Assembly (NCBI RefSeq): GCF_000311825.1
Contig: NZ_HE978567.1
Span: 127,392-191,391 of the forward strand
Reading direction: 5' to 3'
Source of the DNA: Peptoniphilus grossensis ph5
GTDB lineage: Bacteria > Bacillota > Clostridia > Tissierellales > Peptoniphilaceae
Length of the DNA stretch: 64,000 nt
Under the pieces are notes generated by a model. That model made no database searches and was not told the DNA's origin. It worked only from the letters and a program-made list of their open reading frames with translations. Of the stretch, positions 509 to 17,258 are shown piece after piece. The stretch's first letter is position 1. Each line of letters opens with the position of its first letter. The position numbers and the translations under genes are program-made.

Positions 509-2603
509 CTTCATCACCTACTAATTTAAAATCAATATTTCCCATATTTAAGTCCACGCTTACAACTTGGATCTCTACTTGGTCGCCTATGTGGAACTCA
601 TTTTTTGTCTCATAGTCTACAGCCTTGTAGTGGTCTACATCAAATTCGTAGTAGCCCTCCATGGACCTGTAGCTTACAAGGCCTTCTACTAAATTGTCTA
701 GTTCCACAAAAATTCCAAAGCTTGTAATGCTAGAGACCCTGCCAGTGTATCTTTCTCCAAGACGCTCTGACATGTACTCTGCCATTTTTATGTCTTGGAC
801 TTGTCTTTCTGCCTCTTGAGCAATTTTTTCTGTCCTTGAAACTTGCTCTGCTATCTCTGGCAAGATGACCTTTAAATTTTTAATTTCTCCACCAGAGAGT
901 TTGCCCTTTAGGTATTTCTTTATAATTCTGTGAATTGTCAAATCTGCATATCTTCTTATGGGAGATGTAAAGTGTGAATAATAATCAAAGGCTAGGCCAA
1001 AGTGAATGTCATTTATTTCAGAATACCTTGCCTTTGTCATGGAGCGAAGGGTCATAGTAGAGATAAACATCTCTTCCTTAGAGCCCTTTGCCTTTTCAAG
1101 AACTTTTTGCACATCTTTTGGCTGAACTTTTTCGTCAAAGTTAATCATGTAGCCAAGAGGCCTTAGGTAGGTATTAAGTTCAGAAATTTTTTCTTCCTTA
1201 GGTCTTTCGTGGATTCTATATAAGAAAGGAATATGCTTGAAAAAATATTCCCTTGCCACGCAGACATTGGCTGTAAGCATAAAGTCTTCGATGAGTTTGT
1301 TGGCTGATCTTCTGTCTCTCTTGTGAATATTTTGTGGCCAACCTCTATCGTCAACTTCAATTACAACTTCTGGTATGTCAAAGTCAATGGCGCCGCCCTC
1401 TTCTCTCTTCTTTTGCAAGATTTTTGAGAGCTCATACATCTTGTCCAGTGTTTTTTCCAGTCCCTTTATAGATTCGTGAAGGACTCCCTTTTCTAAGTAG
1501 TCAGATACATTTTCGTAAACCAGTCTTTTACTTGAATTTATAACAGATTCACAGATTTCATATTTTACAACATCGCCCTCTTTATTTATCTCTGCCATAA
1601 CTGATAGGGTAAGCCTATCTACGCCCTCATTAAGGGAGCATATGCCATTGGAAAGTTCAAGGGGTAGCATTGGTATTACCTTGTTTAACAAATAGACTGA
1701 GTTGCCCCTCTTGAAGGCCTCCTCGTCAAGGGCGCCAAACTCTTCTACATAGTGAGCCACATCTGCAATGTGAACGCCTAAGAGATAAGATCCCTTCTTT
1801 GTAATTTCAAGGGAGATAGCATCGTCAAAGTCCTTTGAGTCTGCCCCGTCAATGGTAAAAGTTAGTAGGTCTCTAAAGTCCCGCCTTCCCTTTATATCAT
1901 CAGCAGTTACTTCTTGTGGCAGGCTCTTTGCCTCAGCTAGGGCTGCCCTGTTAAATTCCATGGGTAGGTCAAGACCTGCTGCCACAGACATTATGTCTAC
2001 ATGGGGGTCTTCTGGATAGCCTAAAATTTCTAGAACCCGCCCTTCTGGTTTTTTATTTGCCTCTGGCCACTTCTCGATTTTTACAACTACCTTTTGACCA
2101 TTTCTTGCTCCATTAATTTTTTTCTTTGGAATGTAGATGTCCATTGCCATTTTGCTCTCGTCAGTGATTACAAAACCAAAGTCCCTCTTGTCTTGAAAGA
2201 TGCCAACAAATTTTGTGTTCACCCTCTTTACTATGGCAAGGACCTTTCCCTCTGGCTTGTCGCCAAAGGAATCTTTATACCTTCTCACAATGACTTCGTC
2301 GCCATTTAGTGCGAAGTTTAAATTATTTTTTGATATATAAATGTCTTCGTCAAGATTTTCAGTAATCAAAAATCCAAAACCCTTGGCATTTGTTTGAAGT
2401 TTCCCATAAAAGAATTTGTCATTATCTACAAATCTATATTTTTTTCTGCTGTCTTCAAAAATAAGTCCCTCATTTTCTAGTTCTTCAATTATTTTCAAAA
2501 ACTGCTTCTTCTCTTTATTTTTAATTTTAAATAATTTAAGGAGTTCCTCTTTTGACCTTGGTGTTGTCTTTTCGATAATTTCTAAAATCTTTTCTTTAAT
2601 CAT
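501..2603 (-). CDS. rnr: Ribonuclease R
   Basis: A 3'-to-5' hydrolytic exoribonuclease of 700 aa that degrades structured RNA. Order of domains: an N-terminal winged-helix-like segment (about 1-60), cold-shock/OB domains (about 65-220), the RNB catalytic domain (about 240-570) with the metal-binding stretch TIDGADSKDFDDAISL and HIADVAHYV, and a C-terminal S1 domain (about 620-695, GRVSSITSFGIFVELDN). The ATG at 2603 overlaps the ddl stop codon in a TAATG arrangement, and the Shine-Dalgarno is weak, so translational coupling is likely. The gene is the fifth in a minus-strand operon that starts near 6.6 kb. Confidence 0.96.
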   Translation of the reverse strand: MIKEKILEIIEKTTPRSKEELLKLFKIKNKEKKQFLKIIEELENEGLIFEDSRKKYRFVDNDKFFYGKLQTNAKGFGFLITENLDEDIYISKNNLNFALNGDEVIVRRYKDSFGDKPEGKVLAIVKRVNTKFVGIFQDKRDFGFVITDESKMAMDIYIPKKKINGARNGQKVVVKIEKWPEANKKPEGRVLEILGYPEDPHVDIMSVAAGLDLPMEFNRAALAEAKSLPQEVTADDIKGRRDFRDLLTFTIDGADSKDFDDAISLEITKKGSYLLGVHIADVAHYVEEFGALDEEAFKRGNSVYLLNKVIPMLPLELSNGICSLNEGVDRLTLSVMAEINKEGDVVKYEICESVINSSKRLVYENVSDYLEKGVLHESIKGLEKTLDKMYELSKILQKKREEGGAIDFDIPEVVIEVDDRGWPQNIHKRDRRSANKLIEDFMLTANVCVAREYFFKHIPFLYRIHERPKEEKISELNTYLRPLGYMINFDEKVQPKDVQKVLEKAKGSKEEMFISTMTLRSMTKARYSEINDIHFGLAFDYYSHFTSPIRRYADLTIHRIIKKYLKGKLSGGEIKNLKVILPEIAEQVSRTEKIAQEAERQVQDIKMAEYMSERLGERYTGRVSSITSFGIFVELDNLVEGLVSYRSMEGYYEFDVDHYKAVDYETKNEFHIGDQVEIQVVSVDLNMGNIDFKLVGDEDE

Positions 2604-13879: not shown

Positions 13880-14007
13880 ATATATTCTCCTCTTAAAAGA
13901 TTTACAAAAATTTTGTCCAAATTTCTCTTAGTTATTTTAACTTTTTTAATTTAATATTTCAAATTATTAGCGTCCTTAAAAATTTATTTACCACTAAACT
14001 TCTATTA

Positions 14008-14036
14008 TTGACTTTGATAAATCGGTAATGTAAACT
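14008..14036 (+). promoter_or_regulatory. Promoter of the lyase-transporter operon
   Basis: TTGACT (14008-14013), 17-base spacer, TAAACT (14031-14036). The transcript would carry a leader of about 160 nt. The leader begins with a hairpin (AGATAAT/ATTATCT, about 14044-14061) and a second stem (CTTGGAG with CTC-AT-CAAG, about 14060-14083). The 13880-14007 stretch holds nothing else recognisable. Confidence 0.75.
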
Positions 14037-14120
14037 ATTTCTTAGATAATACATATTATCTTGGAGTTCTGACCGCTCATCAAGAAAGAAAACTTAAAAT
14101 TTTGATAACGGGGGTTCTCT

Positions 14121-14156
14121 ATGGGATACTGTCCGCTAGTCGACATTTGTCGATGA
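14121..14156 (+). CDS. Leader-peptide uORF upstream of the lyase gene
   Basis: An 11-codon ORF, MGYCPLVDICR then TGA, inside the leader. A GGGGG run six bases before the ATG could act as its ribosome-binding site. Its coding part contains a short stem (TCGAC/GTCGA). The stop codon lies nine bases before a CCTCTATA segment that can pair with the Shine-Dalgarno of the next gene. In E. coli tnaC plays such a leader role, but this peptide has no tryptophan, so it is not a TnaC homologue by sequence. Translation is not proven. Confidence 0.5.
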   Translation: MGYCPLVDICR

Positions 14157-14164
14157 CCGGGGTT

Positions 14165-14196
14165 CCTCTATAACTTTTTTTATTTTTATATGGAGG
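14165..14196 (+). promoter_or_regulatory. Possible Shine-Dalgarno-sequestering hairpin
   Basis: CCTCTATA (14165-14172) can pair over eight positions (one G-T) with TATGGAGG (14189-14196), which contains the lyase RBS. The loop is a 16-base A/T run. A ribosome paused at the end of the uORF would cover the first arm and expose the RBS; this is inference. Confidence 0.45.
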
Positions 14197-14202
14197 TTTT
14201 TT

Positions 14203-15846
14203 ATGAAAAAGTATCAATTAGATGTACCTACACCACATTCCTACACTTATGTTACAAAGAATATTCCAAATGTAACTGTGGAACAAAGAGAAAGAGCTCT
14301 TAAGGCTACTCACTACAATGAATTTGCCTTCCCTGCAGGAATGTTAACTATCGATATGTTATCTGACTCAGGAACTACTGCCATGACAGATGTTCAATGG
14401 TCTGCAATGTTTTTGGGTGATGAATCTTATGGAAGAAACAAGGGCTACTATGTTCTCTTAGATACCTTTAGAGATGTCTTCGAAAGAGGCGACGATCAAA
14501 AGAGAATTATTGACCTTGTAAGAACTGACTGCGACGATGTTGAAAAAATGATGAACGAAGTTTACCTTTGTGAATATGAAGGTGGACTATTTAACGGTGG
14601 ATCTGCTCAAATGGAAAGACCTAATACTTTTATCATCCAACAAGGTCGTGCAGCTGAATCTGTTTTATTTGAACTTGTTAGAAATATTTTAAATGCAAGA
14701 GAACCTGGAAAGACTTACACAATTCCTTCTAATGGACACTTTGACACTACTGAAGGAAACATCAAGCAAATGGGCTCTATCCCAAGAAACTTATACAATA
14801 AAGAACTTTTATGGGAAGTTCCTGAAAATGGTCACTATGAAAAGAATCCATTTAAGGGCAACATGGACACAGAAAAGTTGGAAGAATTAATTGAAAAATT
14901 AGGACCAGAAAATGTTCCTCTAATTTATACAACTATTACTAACAACACAGTATGTGGTCAACCAGTTTCCATGGCAAACATGAGAGAATGTTCAAGAATC
15001 GCTCACAAATACGAAATTCCTTATATGTTTGATGCTGCAAGATGGGCAGAAAATGCTTACTTCATAAAAGTTAATGAAGATGGCTATGCTGACAAATCAA
15101 TTCCAGAAATCGCTAAGGAAATGTTCTCTTATTGCGACGGCTTTACTGCCTCTCTTAAAAAAGACGGACACGCAAACATGGGTGGCGTTCTTGCCTTTAG
15201 AGACAAGGGCTTATTCTGGAAGAAGTTCTCTGACTTTAACGAAGACGGTTCAGTTAAAACTGATGTAGGAATTCTTTTAAAGGTTAAACAAATTTCTTCC
15301 TACGGCAACGACTCCTACGGTGGAATGAGTGGTAGAGATATTATGGCACTTGCTGCTGGTCTTTATGAAGCAGCTAAGTTTGATTATCTTGATGCCCGTG
15401 TTAAACAATGCGAATACCTTGCACAAGGTTTCTACAAGGCTGGCGTAAAGGGCGTTGTACTTCCTGCTGGTGGTCACGGTGTTTACATCAACATGGACGA
15501 ATTTTTTGACAACAAGAGAGGACCAGAAACTTTTGCTGGTCAAGGTTTCTCTGTTGAATTAATTAGACGCTATGGAATTAGAACTGCAGAACTAGGCAAC
15601 TACTCAATGGAATATGACCTAAAGACTCCAGAACAACAAGCTGAAGTAGCCAATGTAGTTCGTTTCGCAGTAAACAGAAGTCAACTTTCAAAGGAACACA
15701 TGGATTATGTAATTGCAGCTGTAAAGGCTCTTTACGAAGACCGTGCTACTATTCCTAATATTAGAATAGTCAAGGGCAAGAACCTTCCAATGCGTCACTT
15801 CCACGCTTTCCTTGAAACTTATGAACCTTCTGAAGATGAAAAATAA
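14203..15846 (+). CDS. Tryptophanase/tyrosine phenol-lyase family beta-eliminating lyase, extended form
   Basis: A PLP enzyme of 547 aa. Family landmarks: LTDSGT-like MLSDSGTTAMTDVQW (about 52-66), QPVSMANMRE (about 253-262), FDAARWAENAYFI (276-288) and the PLP lysine in ASLKKDGHANMGG (about K320). DAAR.AENAYFI resembles tryptophanase, and the tyrosine phenol-lyase SMERG motif is TAELG here, which disfavours TPL. Classical members are about 455-475 aa; this one carries an insertion of about 45 residues near 92-138, so the substrate is not certain. The products would be pyruvate, ammonia and indole if tryptophan is used. The next gene is an NSS transporter, as in other tryptophanase loci. RBS GGAGG, six bases. 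Confidence 0.85.
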   Translation: MKKYQLDVPTPHSYTYVTKNIPNVTVEQRERALKATHYNEFAFPAGMLTIDMLSDSGTTAMTDVQWSAMFLGDESYGRNKGYYVLLDTFRDVFERGDDQKRIIDLVRTDCDDVEKMMNEVYLCEYEGGLFNGGSAQMERPNTFIIQQGRAAESVLFELVRNILNAREPGKTYTIPSNGHFDTTEGNIKQMGSIPRNLYNKELLWEVPENGHYEKNPFKGNMDTEKLEELIEKLGPENVPLIYTTITNNTVCGQPVSMANMRECSRIAHKYEIPYMFDAARWAENAYFIKVNEDGYADKSIPEIAKEMFSYCDGFTASLKKDGHANMGGVLAFRDKGLFWKKFSDFNEDGSVKTDVGILLKVKQISSYGNDSYGGMSGRDIMALAAGLYEAAKFDYLDARVKQCEYLAQGFYKAGVKGVVLPAGGHGVYINMDEFFDNKRGPETFAGQGFSVELIRRYGIRTAELGNYSMEYDLKTPEQQAEVANVVRFAVNRSQLSKEHMDYVIAAVKALYEDRATIPNIRIVKGKNLPMRHFHAFLETYEPSEDEK

Positions 15847-15896: not shown

Positions 15897-15917
15897 ACCC
15901 TATTAAGGAGAATGACT

Positions 15918-17258
15918 ATGGATAATAACTTAAAAGCTCGTGATGGTTTTAAAAGTAAATGGGGTTTTATACTTGCTTGTATAGGCTCAGCAGTTGGTAT
16001 GGGTAATATTTGGAGATTCCCTATAATGGTTTCTACCTATGGTGGAATGACTTTTTTAATCCCATATATAATATTTGTAATTCTTATAGGTTCAACTGGA
16101 GTAATTTCTGAAATGGCACTGGGAAGATCTGCTGAAGCTGGTCCCGTTGGTGCCTTTGGAAAATGCACTGAATTAAGATGGAATAATAGAAAACTTGGCG
16201 AAATAATTGGACTTATACCAGTAGTAGGCTCCCTTGCTCTAGCCATAGGTTACACTTGTGTAATGGGTTGGATTTTTAAGTACACTTTCCTTTCATTATC
16301 AGGCGGACTTTATGCTATGGGTCAAGACATGGATGTAATTGGCGGAACTTTTGGACAAACAGCCTCTGCCTTTGGCGCAAATATTTGGGTTGTTATAGCA
16401 ATTATTGCAAGCTTTGCCATTATGGTAATGGGAGTATCTGGCGGAATCGAAAAGGCAAACAAAATTATGATGCCTGTCCTCTTTGTTTTATTTGTAGGAC
16501 TTGCGATTTACATCTTCACCCTTCCAGGTGCAAGCAATGGATATAAATACATCTTTACAGTAAACCCTGAAGGCTTAAAGGATCCAAAAGTTTGGATTTT
16601 TGCCTTTGGACAAGCCTTCTTCTCCCTATCCGTTGCCGGAAATGGAACAGTAATTTACGGCTCCTATTTACCTAAAAACGAAAGCATTCCATCCTCTGCA
16701 AGAAATGTTGCAGTCTTTGATACTCTTGCAGCTCTACTTGCAGCCTTTGTAATTATCCCTGCCATGGCAACAGCAAATGCACCTCTTGATACTGGTGGTC
16801 CTGGACTAATGTTTATTTACCTAGTAAATGTATTTAATGGCATGGCTGTAGGAAGAGTCATTGGTATTATTTTCTACATCTGTGTGCTCTTCGCAGGCGT
16901 ATCTTCCATAATAAATCTTTACGAAGCACCAGTTGCTTATTTGCAAGAACAATTTAATTTTTCAAGACCAATTGCAACAACAACTATTCATGTAATTGGT
17001 TGTATCGTAGCTATATTTATTCAAGCTATAGTCGGCGGTTGGATGGATGTAGTTTCCATTTACATCTGCCCACTTGGAGCAGCCCTTGCTGGCATAATGT
17101 TCCTATGGGTTGCAGGAAAAGATTATGTAATCCCTGCAGTTAGTCAAGGTCATGAAAAAGAAATTGGCGGATGGTATTATCCACTTGCAAAATATGTATA
17201 TGTAACAGCAGCCATAATTGCCCTAATAGCAGGCGCAAAATTTGGCGGTATCGGTTGA
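15918..17258 (+). CDS. Sodium-dependent amino-acid transporter (NSS/SNF family)
   Basis: A 446-aa symporter with about 11-12 membrane helices. The NSS signature WGFILACIGSAVGMGNIWRFP in TM1 binds Na+ and substrate; GNGTVIYGSYLPK marks the TM6 region. The eleven-helix bacterial form is expected (LeuT/TnaT). The ATG at 15918 has AAGGAG seven bases upstream; the ATG at 15912 is only one base from it, so I reject that one. Cotranscription with the lyase suggests it imports the lyase substrate, probably an aromatic amino acid. Family assignment is firm; substrate is inference. Confidence 0.93.
   Translation: MDNNLKARDGFKSKWGFILACIGSAVGMGNIWRFPIMVSTYGGMTFLIPYIIFVILIGSTGVISEMALGRSAEAGPVGAFGKCTELRWNNRKLGEIIGLIPVVGSLALAIGYTCVMGWIFKYTFLSLSGGLYAMGQDMDVIGGTFGQTASAFGANIWVVIAIIASFAIMVMGVSGGIEKANKIMMPVLFVLFVGLAIYIFTLPGASNGYKYIFTVNPEGLKDPKVWIFAFGQAFFSLSVAGNGTVIYGSYLPKNESIPSSARNVAVFDTLAALLAAFVIIPAMATANAPLDTGGPGLMFIYLVNVFNGMAVGRVIGIIFYICVLFAGVSSIINLYEAPVAYLQEQFNFSRPIATTTIHVIGCIVAIFIQAIVGGWMDVVSIYICPLGAALAGIMFLWVAGKDYVIPAVSQGHEKEIGGWYYPLAKYVYVTAAIIALIAGAKFGGIG

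Follow-up and report, generated by a model that had tools for sequence, protein, structure and literature searches.

A candidate natural L-tryptophan riboswitch upstream of tryptophanase genes in Peptoniphilus and other Bacillota

Introduction

The tryptophanase leader tnaC of Escherichia coli exerts its control through arrest and Rho. Glycine cleavage genes are induced by their own substrate through the glycine riboswitch, which is described as an ON switch with tandem aptamers (PMC11207198). For tryptophan, the trpB motif (SRC-39-1) is described in PMC11109978 as a riboswitch candidate near tryptophan genes, composed of two hairpins of which the second is terminator-like; the gene that follows is usually one for an ABC transporter and in some cases trpB. 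Synthetic tryptophan riboswitches are also on record, among them Blc3, whose description in PMC11126579 cites Majerfeld & Yarus 2005 and Yang 2013. In the open-access literature, represented mostly by titles and the beginnings of abstracts and with bioRxiv and most subscription journals outside its scope, we found no natural tryptophan riboswitch, and the main text of PMC11109978 has no word beginning with tna, Peptoniphilus, Anaerococcus or Agathobaculum.

We analysed a window of 64,000 nucleotides, the whole stretch of DNA under study, from the 2.1 Mb genome of Peptoniphilus grossensis ph5. The leader of its tryptophanase-family gene, tnaA, most probably contains tandem candidate aptamers of a new natural class of L-tryptophan riboswitch, which would act as a translational ON switch. 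This proposal builds on the conservation of the element, covariation in its P2 helix, its linkage to tnaA, the identity of its loop and fold with a selected tryptophan aptamer, and the predicted occlusion and release of the Shine-Dalgarno (SD) sequence. Like the glycine riboswitch upstream of gcvT as described, the tnaA element is proposed to be an amino-acid ON switch on a degradation gene, with two tandem aptamers. However, it differs in sequence and ligand, the window leader has no Rfam match to the glycine class, and most genera with the tnaA element carry a single copy. It shares with tnaC the position in a tryptophanase leader and the expected induction by tryptophan, whereas it has no conserved peptide, its open reading frame (ORF) lacks a Trp codon, and control would take place at the SD. 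The trpB motif, going by its description, is set apart by its two-hairpin design and its other neighbour genes. The proposed natural element would work in the same manner as the synthetic tryptophan switches.

Results

A conserved RNA element goes with tnaA

Conservation at this locus lies in a structured RNA, some 50 nt long and immediately upstream of tnaA; it is tandem in the window and mostly single elsewhere in Bacillota (Table 1). The earlier note had placed the downstream gene in the tryptophanase family, and this assignment was borne out by NCBIfam and by the closest solved chain to its product, PDB 8sl7 ('Tryptophanase'). The transporter gene that follows probably forms one operon with tnaA, judging from the gene order. 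By eye, same-genus leaders have a promoter-like site similar to that of the window. A scan for intrinsic terminators found no terminator-like site within window positions 13880-14260, and intrinsic terminator control was set aside. Rfam gave no credible match for the window leader or the Agathobaculum leader L113 (searched to E 5; E at least 0.66, far below the gathering scores), and the T-box covariance model did not match the window leader.

Table 1. Features of the tnaA leader and downstream genes in the window
Feature	Position	Strand	Basis
Promoter-like site, sigma-70 type, TTGACT-17-TAAACT, upstream of leader	14008..14036	+	Consensus match only, 9/12 positions
5' hairpin AGATAAT-ACAT-ATTATCT, leader start, outside aptamer	14044..14061	+	MFE fold
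Candidate aptamer copy 1, divergent: loop CUC/AAC, long P2, CGGGGG variant	14062..14121	+	Covariance model R3, 34.1 bits, E 3.1e-7
Candidate aptamer copy 2, canonical	14122..14171	+	Covariance model R3, 62.3 bits, E 2.2e-15
Copy 2 P1	14124-14129/14162-14166, U14127 bulged	+	Predicted pairs
Copy 2 3/1 loop	UGU 14130-14132 / G14161	+	Predicted pairs
Copy 2 3-bp helix	CCG 14133-14135 / CGG 14158-14160	+	Predicted pairs
Copy 2 3x3 loop	CUA 14136-14138 / GAC 14155-14157	+	Predicted pairs
Copy 2 P2	14139-14144 / 14149-14154	+	Predicted pairs
Anti-Shine-Dalgarno CCUCUAUA (= CCTCTATA)	14165..14172	+	Partner of SD in free ensemble
Shine-Dalgarno region of tnaA, UAUGGAGG (= TATGGAGG)	14189..14196	+	Sequence and predicted pairing
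uORF MGYCPLVDICR and stop, overlaps aptamer copy 2	14121..14156	+	Unconserved start codon
tnaA, tryptophanase-family, 547 aa, long form	14203..15846	+	NCBIfam PRK13238, E 1.2e-183
Sodium-dependent (SNF/NSS) transporter	15912..17258	+	NCBIfam NF037979

Orthologues were sought by protein in 101 genomes, which yielded 19 long-form tnaA genes (at least 74% identity). The element precedes 15 of these genes and is absent at four. All ten same-genus leaders contain two adjacent copies, copy 1 being present in each of them, and five other long-form loci contain one copy. None of the 11 short-form tnaA loci fetched in the relatives search has the element, and a phylum-wide draw of 398 genomes added two elements before short-form tnaA (L163 and L164). 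Covariance model searches detected the element in 25 of 130 genomes of the family (E ≤0.01) and in 27 of 249 order-wide, and in every case (25/25 and 27/27) the next gene was tnaA. Within the genus, all ten genomes with tnaA carry the element and none of the four without tnaA does. Weak matches at the phylum level (L067-L071) lack tnaA in the ~3 kb retrieved at each and were treated as chance.

We also scanned 85k bacterial and archaeal genomes with a sequence pattern, obtaining 91 stretches, of which 80 were examined; about four chance matches were expected by a hand estimate. The next gene is tnaA at 75 of the 80 loci, as judged by phmmer for 70 (E ≤3.9e-13) and by eye from the first codons for five. 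One locus is followed by a sodium-dependent transporter (L085), one ends too soon, and three (L090, L129 and L147) look like chance and were set aside. The matches belong mainly to Oscillospiraceae, Lachnospiraceae, Agathobaculum, Anaerotruncus, Peptoniphilus and Anaerococcus, and also to Acidaminococcus and a Solobacterium MAG. Among 40 whole genomes drawn from those of the pattern-scan loci, 38 have a single element locus when tandem copies are counted once. Agathobaculum massiliense has two loci, both with tnaA, and the L085 genome has the transporter locus and a second locus preceding tnaA. The neighbours in the wide scan and the locus counts in the 40 genomes indicate that the element goes with tryptophanase.

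Several loci deserve individual mention. In Pseudoflavonifractor sp. Marseille-P3106 (L085, motif 1892-1960, minus strand), a short stretch without tnaA separates the motif from the transporter gene, and the tnaA-linked copy is elsewhere in the genome (L195). An Oscillibacter MAG (L073) has tandem copies at 1680-1741 and 1757-1815 on the minus strand, outside Peptoniphilus and Anaerococcus, and its upstream copy has an unusual CCU/GAC loop. By eye, the gene that ends just before the motif or tnaA at L101, L102, L125 and L021 looks like a RidA family member, a neighbour that fits because tryptophanase releases 2-aminoacrylate. About 60 bases past the motif, L140 has an adapter-like stretch at the expected start of tnaA, presumably an Illumina P5 adapter by its resemblance, and this insert is probably an assembly artefact in the MAG.

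Fold and covariation of the element

From the outside inwards, the fold comprises P1, a 3/1 loop with Y-G-N facing G, a CCG/CGG helix, a 3x3 loop C-Y-A/R-A-C, and P2 of variable length. Alignment A3 was built from 84 source sequences, two partial copies included. Over 90 distinct, model-aligned rows, 93.4% of 1133 cells were paired, compared with 31-48% in partner-slid controls, and 96 cells showed double-sided changes as against 32.3 in shuffles. Because a model alignment leans to structure, the pair count was repeated on a structure-free anchoring of 63 ungapped rows, anchored on conserved letters only, with 2000 shuffles. In P2, pair 20-28 was formed in 63/63 rows (57.9 shuffled), pair 21-27 in 59/63 (47.0 shuffled) and pair 22-26 in 43/63 (22.7 shuffled), and for each of the three no shuffle out of 2000 was as high. 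In P1, pair 4-42 was formed in 47 rows (40.3 shuffled; 1/2000 shuffles) and pair 3-43 was marginal (116/2000 shuffles). This 63-row anchored test gave no covariation support for P1 pairs 5-41 and 6-40 or for P2 pairs 18-30 and 23-25. Covariation is strong in P2 and weak in P1. As would be expected of a riboswitch, the 5' UTRs of these metabolically linked genes share a conserved, structured candidate aptamer that shows compensatory changes.

All 90 distinct rows keep the 3/1-loop G, in the pattern-scan part by construction; the same applies to any letter invariance in that set, because the pattern fixed or limited many bases. The protein-first set, which was chosen without the pattern, shows the same conserved letters. 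The 3x3 loop reads CCA/GAC in 46 of the 90 distinct rows, CUA/GAC in 19, CUC/AAC in 14, CUA/AAC in 9 and otherwise in 2, so that AAC replaces GAC in 23 rows, 14 of them with CUC. As CUC was found only opposite A, these sequences suggest a coupled non-canonical pair. The CUC/AAC variant may form an isosteric pocket or may have another specificity. It recurs in distant genera (L066, L076, L094, L095 and window copy 1), also as the sole aptamer.

Position 14110, in copy 1 of the window, is a G, whereas the other nine leaders of the genus carry C there (CGGGGG for CCGGGG). Since G14110 breaks one CCG/CGG core pair of copy 1, the tandem is possibly partly inactive in the window strain; copy 1 may be weakened there, or it may tune the response.

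The commonest internal loop equals that of a selected tryptophan aptamer

The core of Blc3 is given in PMC11126579 as CGACG-GGG-ACG-CCA-CUGG...CCAG-GAC-CGU-A-CGUCG. The MFE fold of this 44-nt core has 5 bp, a 3/1 loop, 3 bp, a 3x3 loop CCA/GAC and P2; in a 58-nt context, the RNAfold MFE takes another register. In Blc4, the second synthetic tryptophan riboswitch described in PMC11126579, the natural loop was not seen by eye. PMC5492135 describes a loop-flanking G as a requirement of the tryptophan site and states that tryptophan sites concentrate anticodons. As far as these descriptions go, the natural element and the selected L-tryptophan aptamer have in common P1, a 3/1 loop with an unpaired G, a 3-bp helix, the CCA (CYA)/GAC loop with C-G and G-C flanks, and P2. 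In contrast to the selected RNA, the natural one is genomic with compensatory changes, has other helix sequences and its own expression platform, and carries UGU/G instead of GGG/A in the 3/1 loop. The loop variants CUA and CUC/AAC, and the tandem copies of some genera, are found only on the natural side. The published consensus of the tryptophan aptamer selected by Majerfeld and Yarus is reportedly written CYA.

A CYA/GAC loop with the C-G and G-C flanks of the selected aptamer occurs in 65 of the 90 distinct rows, including window copy 2, and is lacking in window copy 1 (CUC/AAC); an extra unpaired G near the loop is found in 90/90 rows. The selected-aptamer loop is therefore not universal among natural copies. 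A 3x3 loop would match CYA/GAC by chance at ~1/2000, or ~1/70000 with the two flanking pairs, figures that presume the architecture and count a single aptamer, one considered because tryptophanase adjoined the motif.

The same RNA might instead be a riboswitch for another molecule tied to tryptophanase, such as indole, tyrosine or another aromatic, PLP, or 2-aminoacrylate/pyruvate. Gene linkage alone would fit any signal of tryptophanase activity, the CUC/AAC loops (14/90 rows) could differ in specificity, and the substrate of the enzyme is assigned by sequence only. We nevertheless consider another ligand unlikely, because an RNA selected to bind tryptophan has the same core loop and fold, a match improbable by chance at the levels given above, and because the enzymes themselves resemble tryptophanase. 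The tryptophanase score exceeds the tyrosine phenol-lyase score in 4/4 proteins tested (358 vs 287 bits for the window protein), and RHF stands near the C-terminus of 57/57 full-length downstream products. The NCBI tryptophanase subfamily cut-off was passed, and the equivalog cut-off for tryptophanase or tyrosine phenol-lyase was reached by none of the four. By alignment, RHF is near the C-terminus of both the window tnaA product and E. coli tryptophanase, and we take its His to mark tryptophanase.

Proteins, too, can recognise short conserved hairpins whose internal loops are conserved, and the element could then be bound by a tryptophan-activated RNA-binding protein instead of being a self-contained riboswitch. 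Such a protein site is quite improbable. With one locus per genome in 38/40 genomes, spread over several orders, it would need a dedicated and widely shared regulator, and its likeness to an aptamer that binds a ligand would have to be accidental. A self-contained riboswitch for tryptophan is the reading that we follow below.

Predicted masking and release of the Shine-Dalgarno sequence

In the predicted free ensemble of the window leader, positions 14165-14170 are the partner of the SD core (14191-14196), with a pairing probability of 0.97-0.98. The first two bases of the anti-SD also belong to the 3' arm of P1, so that its pairing in P1 and its pairing with the SD are alternatives. Forcing aptamer 2 to form costs 3.3 kcal/mol and is predicted to raise the unpaired probability of the SD core from 0.01 to 0.45.

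The same calculation was applied to 74 leaders, with the start codon picked automatically by the best SD match and not individually curated. Dropped before the test were the chance matches L090, L129 and L147, as well as L085 with its other gene, L140 with the adapter-like insert, and L102, where the contig ends. Across these leaders, which are mutually related so that counts over them are not independent, the mean unpaired probability of the SD is 0.14 in the free state and 0.37 with the aptamer forced. Exposure increases by >0.1 in 57 of the 74, decreases by >0.1 in one and changes little in 16. The earlier note had suggested checking the SD stem in related leaders, and its occurrence there is beyond chance: in 73 leaders, one without enough linker being omitted, the unpaired SD averages 0.141 as observed and 0.314 with shuffled linkers. 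Exposure lies below the leader's own shuffle mean in 63 of the 73, and for 37 of them at most 2 of 40 linker shuffles are as low.

The main predicted partner of the SD is the 3' arm of P1 with the following bases in 50 of the 74 leaders. It lies in the 5' half of the aptamer in 11 and in the linker in 2, and is mixed or weak in 11. In the P1-3'-arm and 5'-half arrangements the modelled SD is freed when the aptamer forms, so a ligand stabilising the aptamer would release it. An expression platform exclusive with the aptamer fold is thus predicted in most, though not all, leaders. On these models, the leader very likely controls the translation of tryptophanase through an SD-hiding helix.

Upstream open reading frames

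The earlier note had proposed that a ribosome stalled on an 11-codon ORF, MGYCPLVDICR, frees the ribosome-binding site of tnaA. The ORF is indeed present at 14121-14153 with the stop TGA at 14154-14156, and the helix that was invoked can form, with 8 bp, one of them U-G, between CCTCTATA (14165-14172) and TATGGAGG (14189-14196). The GGGGG noted with the ORF also exists (14110-14114); it belongs to the ACCGGGG element of aptamer copy 1, which reads ACGGGGG in the window genome only among the ten same-genus leaders. The note had named loss of the ORF in close relatives as speaking against the proposal, and the start triplet is lost in eight of the ten same-genus leaders: it is ATG in two (L003, L007), ATA in five (L004, L005, L006, L009, L011) and TTT in three (L008, L010, L012), and the length of the frame varies. 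Among 70 distinct motif copies of the wide scan, an in-frame upstream start is ATG in 5, TTG in 7, GTG in 3 and missing in 55, and motif lengths fall into all three classes modulo 3 (31, 21 and 18 copies).

Stalling on this ORF as the trigger was therefore rejected and we give it almost no credence, despite the presence of the ORF in the window genome and one relative and the strongly predicted anti-SD/SD helix: start codon and frame are lost among relatives, and the conserved changes are compensatory RNA changes. From its sequence, the ORF appears to overlap aptamer 2 incidentally, with no sign of selection. What survives of the leader control originally suggested is the SD-hiding helix that would limit tryptophanase translation. 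The view that a tnaC-like system is not at work here is upheld, as the ORF has no Trp codon and neither the window leader nor its relatives show the conserved peptide, essential residues and Trp of such an arrest leader. Because an RNA structure with compensatory changes is kept around a loop identical to that of the selected aptamer, the likely trigger is direct ligand binding.

A shorter frame, AUGACCGGGG... (MTGV...), starting in the 3' half of the aptamer (window 14153-14155 onward), is hardly credible as a functional uORF and probably a by-product of RNA conservation, because its start site, ATG in 56 of 70 distinct copies, is ATA, ACG or ACA in the other 14, the peptides past MTGV vary in length and sequence with some running into tnaA, and the pair that closes P2, together with the GAC loop, accounts for its bases.

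Discussion

As tryptophanase degrades tryptophan, induction by the substrate would be expected, and a translational ON switch for tryptophan would be the simplest account of the predicted structures. Without tryptophan, the aptamer 3'-end sequence CCUCUAUA would pair with the Shine-Dalgarno UAUGGAGG and tryptophanase would not be made. Tryptophan would bind in the CYA/GAC loop, which lies between the 3-bp helix and P2, with help from the unpaired G that is conserved in the nearby 3/1 loop. The bound tryptophan would stabilise P1, whose 3' arm overlaps the anti-SD, thereby releasing the SD and allowing the cell to degrade surplus tryptophan. We infer that the natural RNA binds tryptophan and that switching in cells runs in this direction; the tandem copies may also act cooperatively.

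We consider it likely that this is a natural L-tryptophan riboswitch with the same CYA/GAC pocket as that obtained by test-tube selection. Cellular and in vitro evolution would then have converged on one solution. The commonest form of the proposed natural pocket holds CCA. This is the anticodon triplet of tryptophan, a point of relevance to the stereochemical theory of the genetic code. We know of no earlier natural riboswitch whose binding site equals an aptamer previously selected for the same ligand. If the proposal is true, this would be the first such match between a natural and a selected RNA, and the idea that amino acids have preferred RNA sites could be put directly to the test. It would also mean that a regulator of the indole-producing tryptophanase has been found in many gut and human-associated anaerobes, including Peptoniphilus, Anaerococcus, Anaerotruncus, Agathobaculum, Lachnoanaerobaculum and others.
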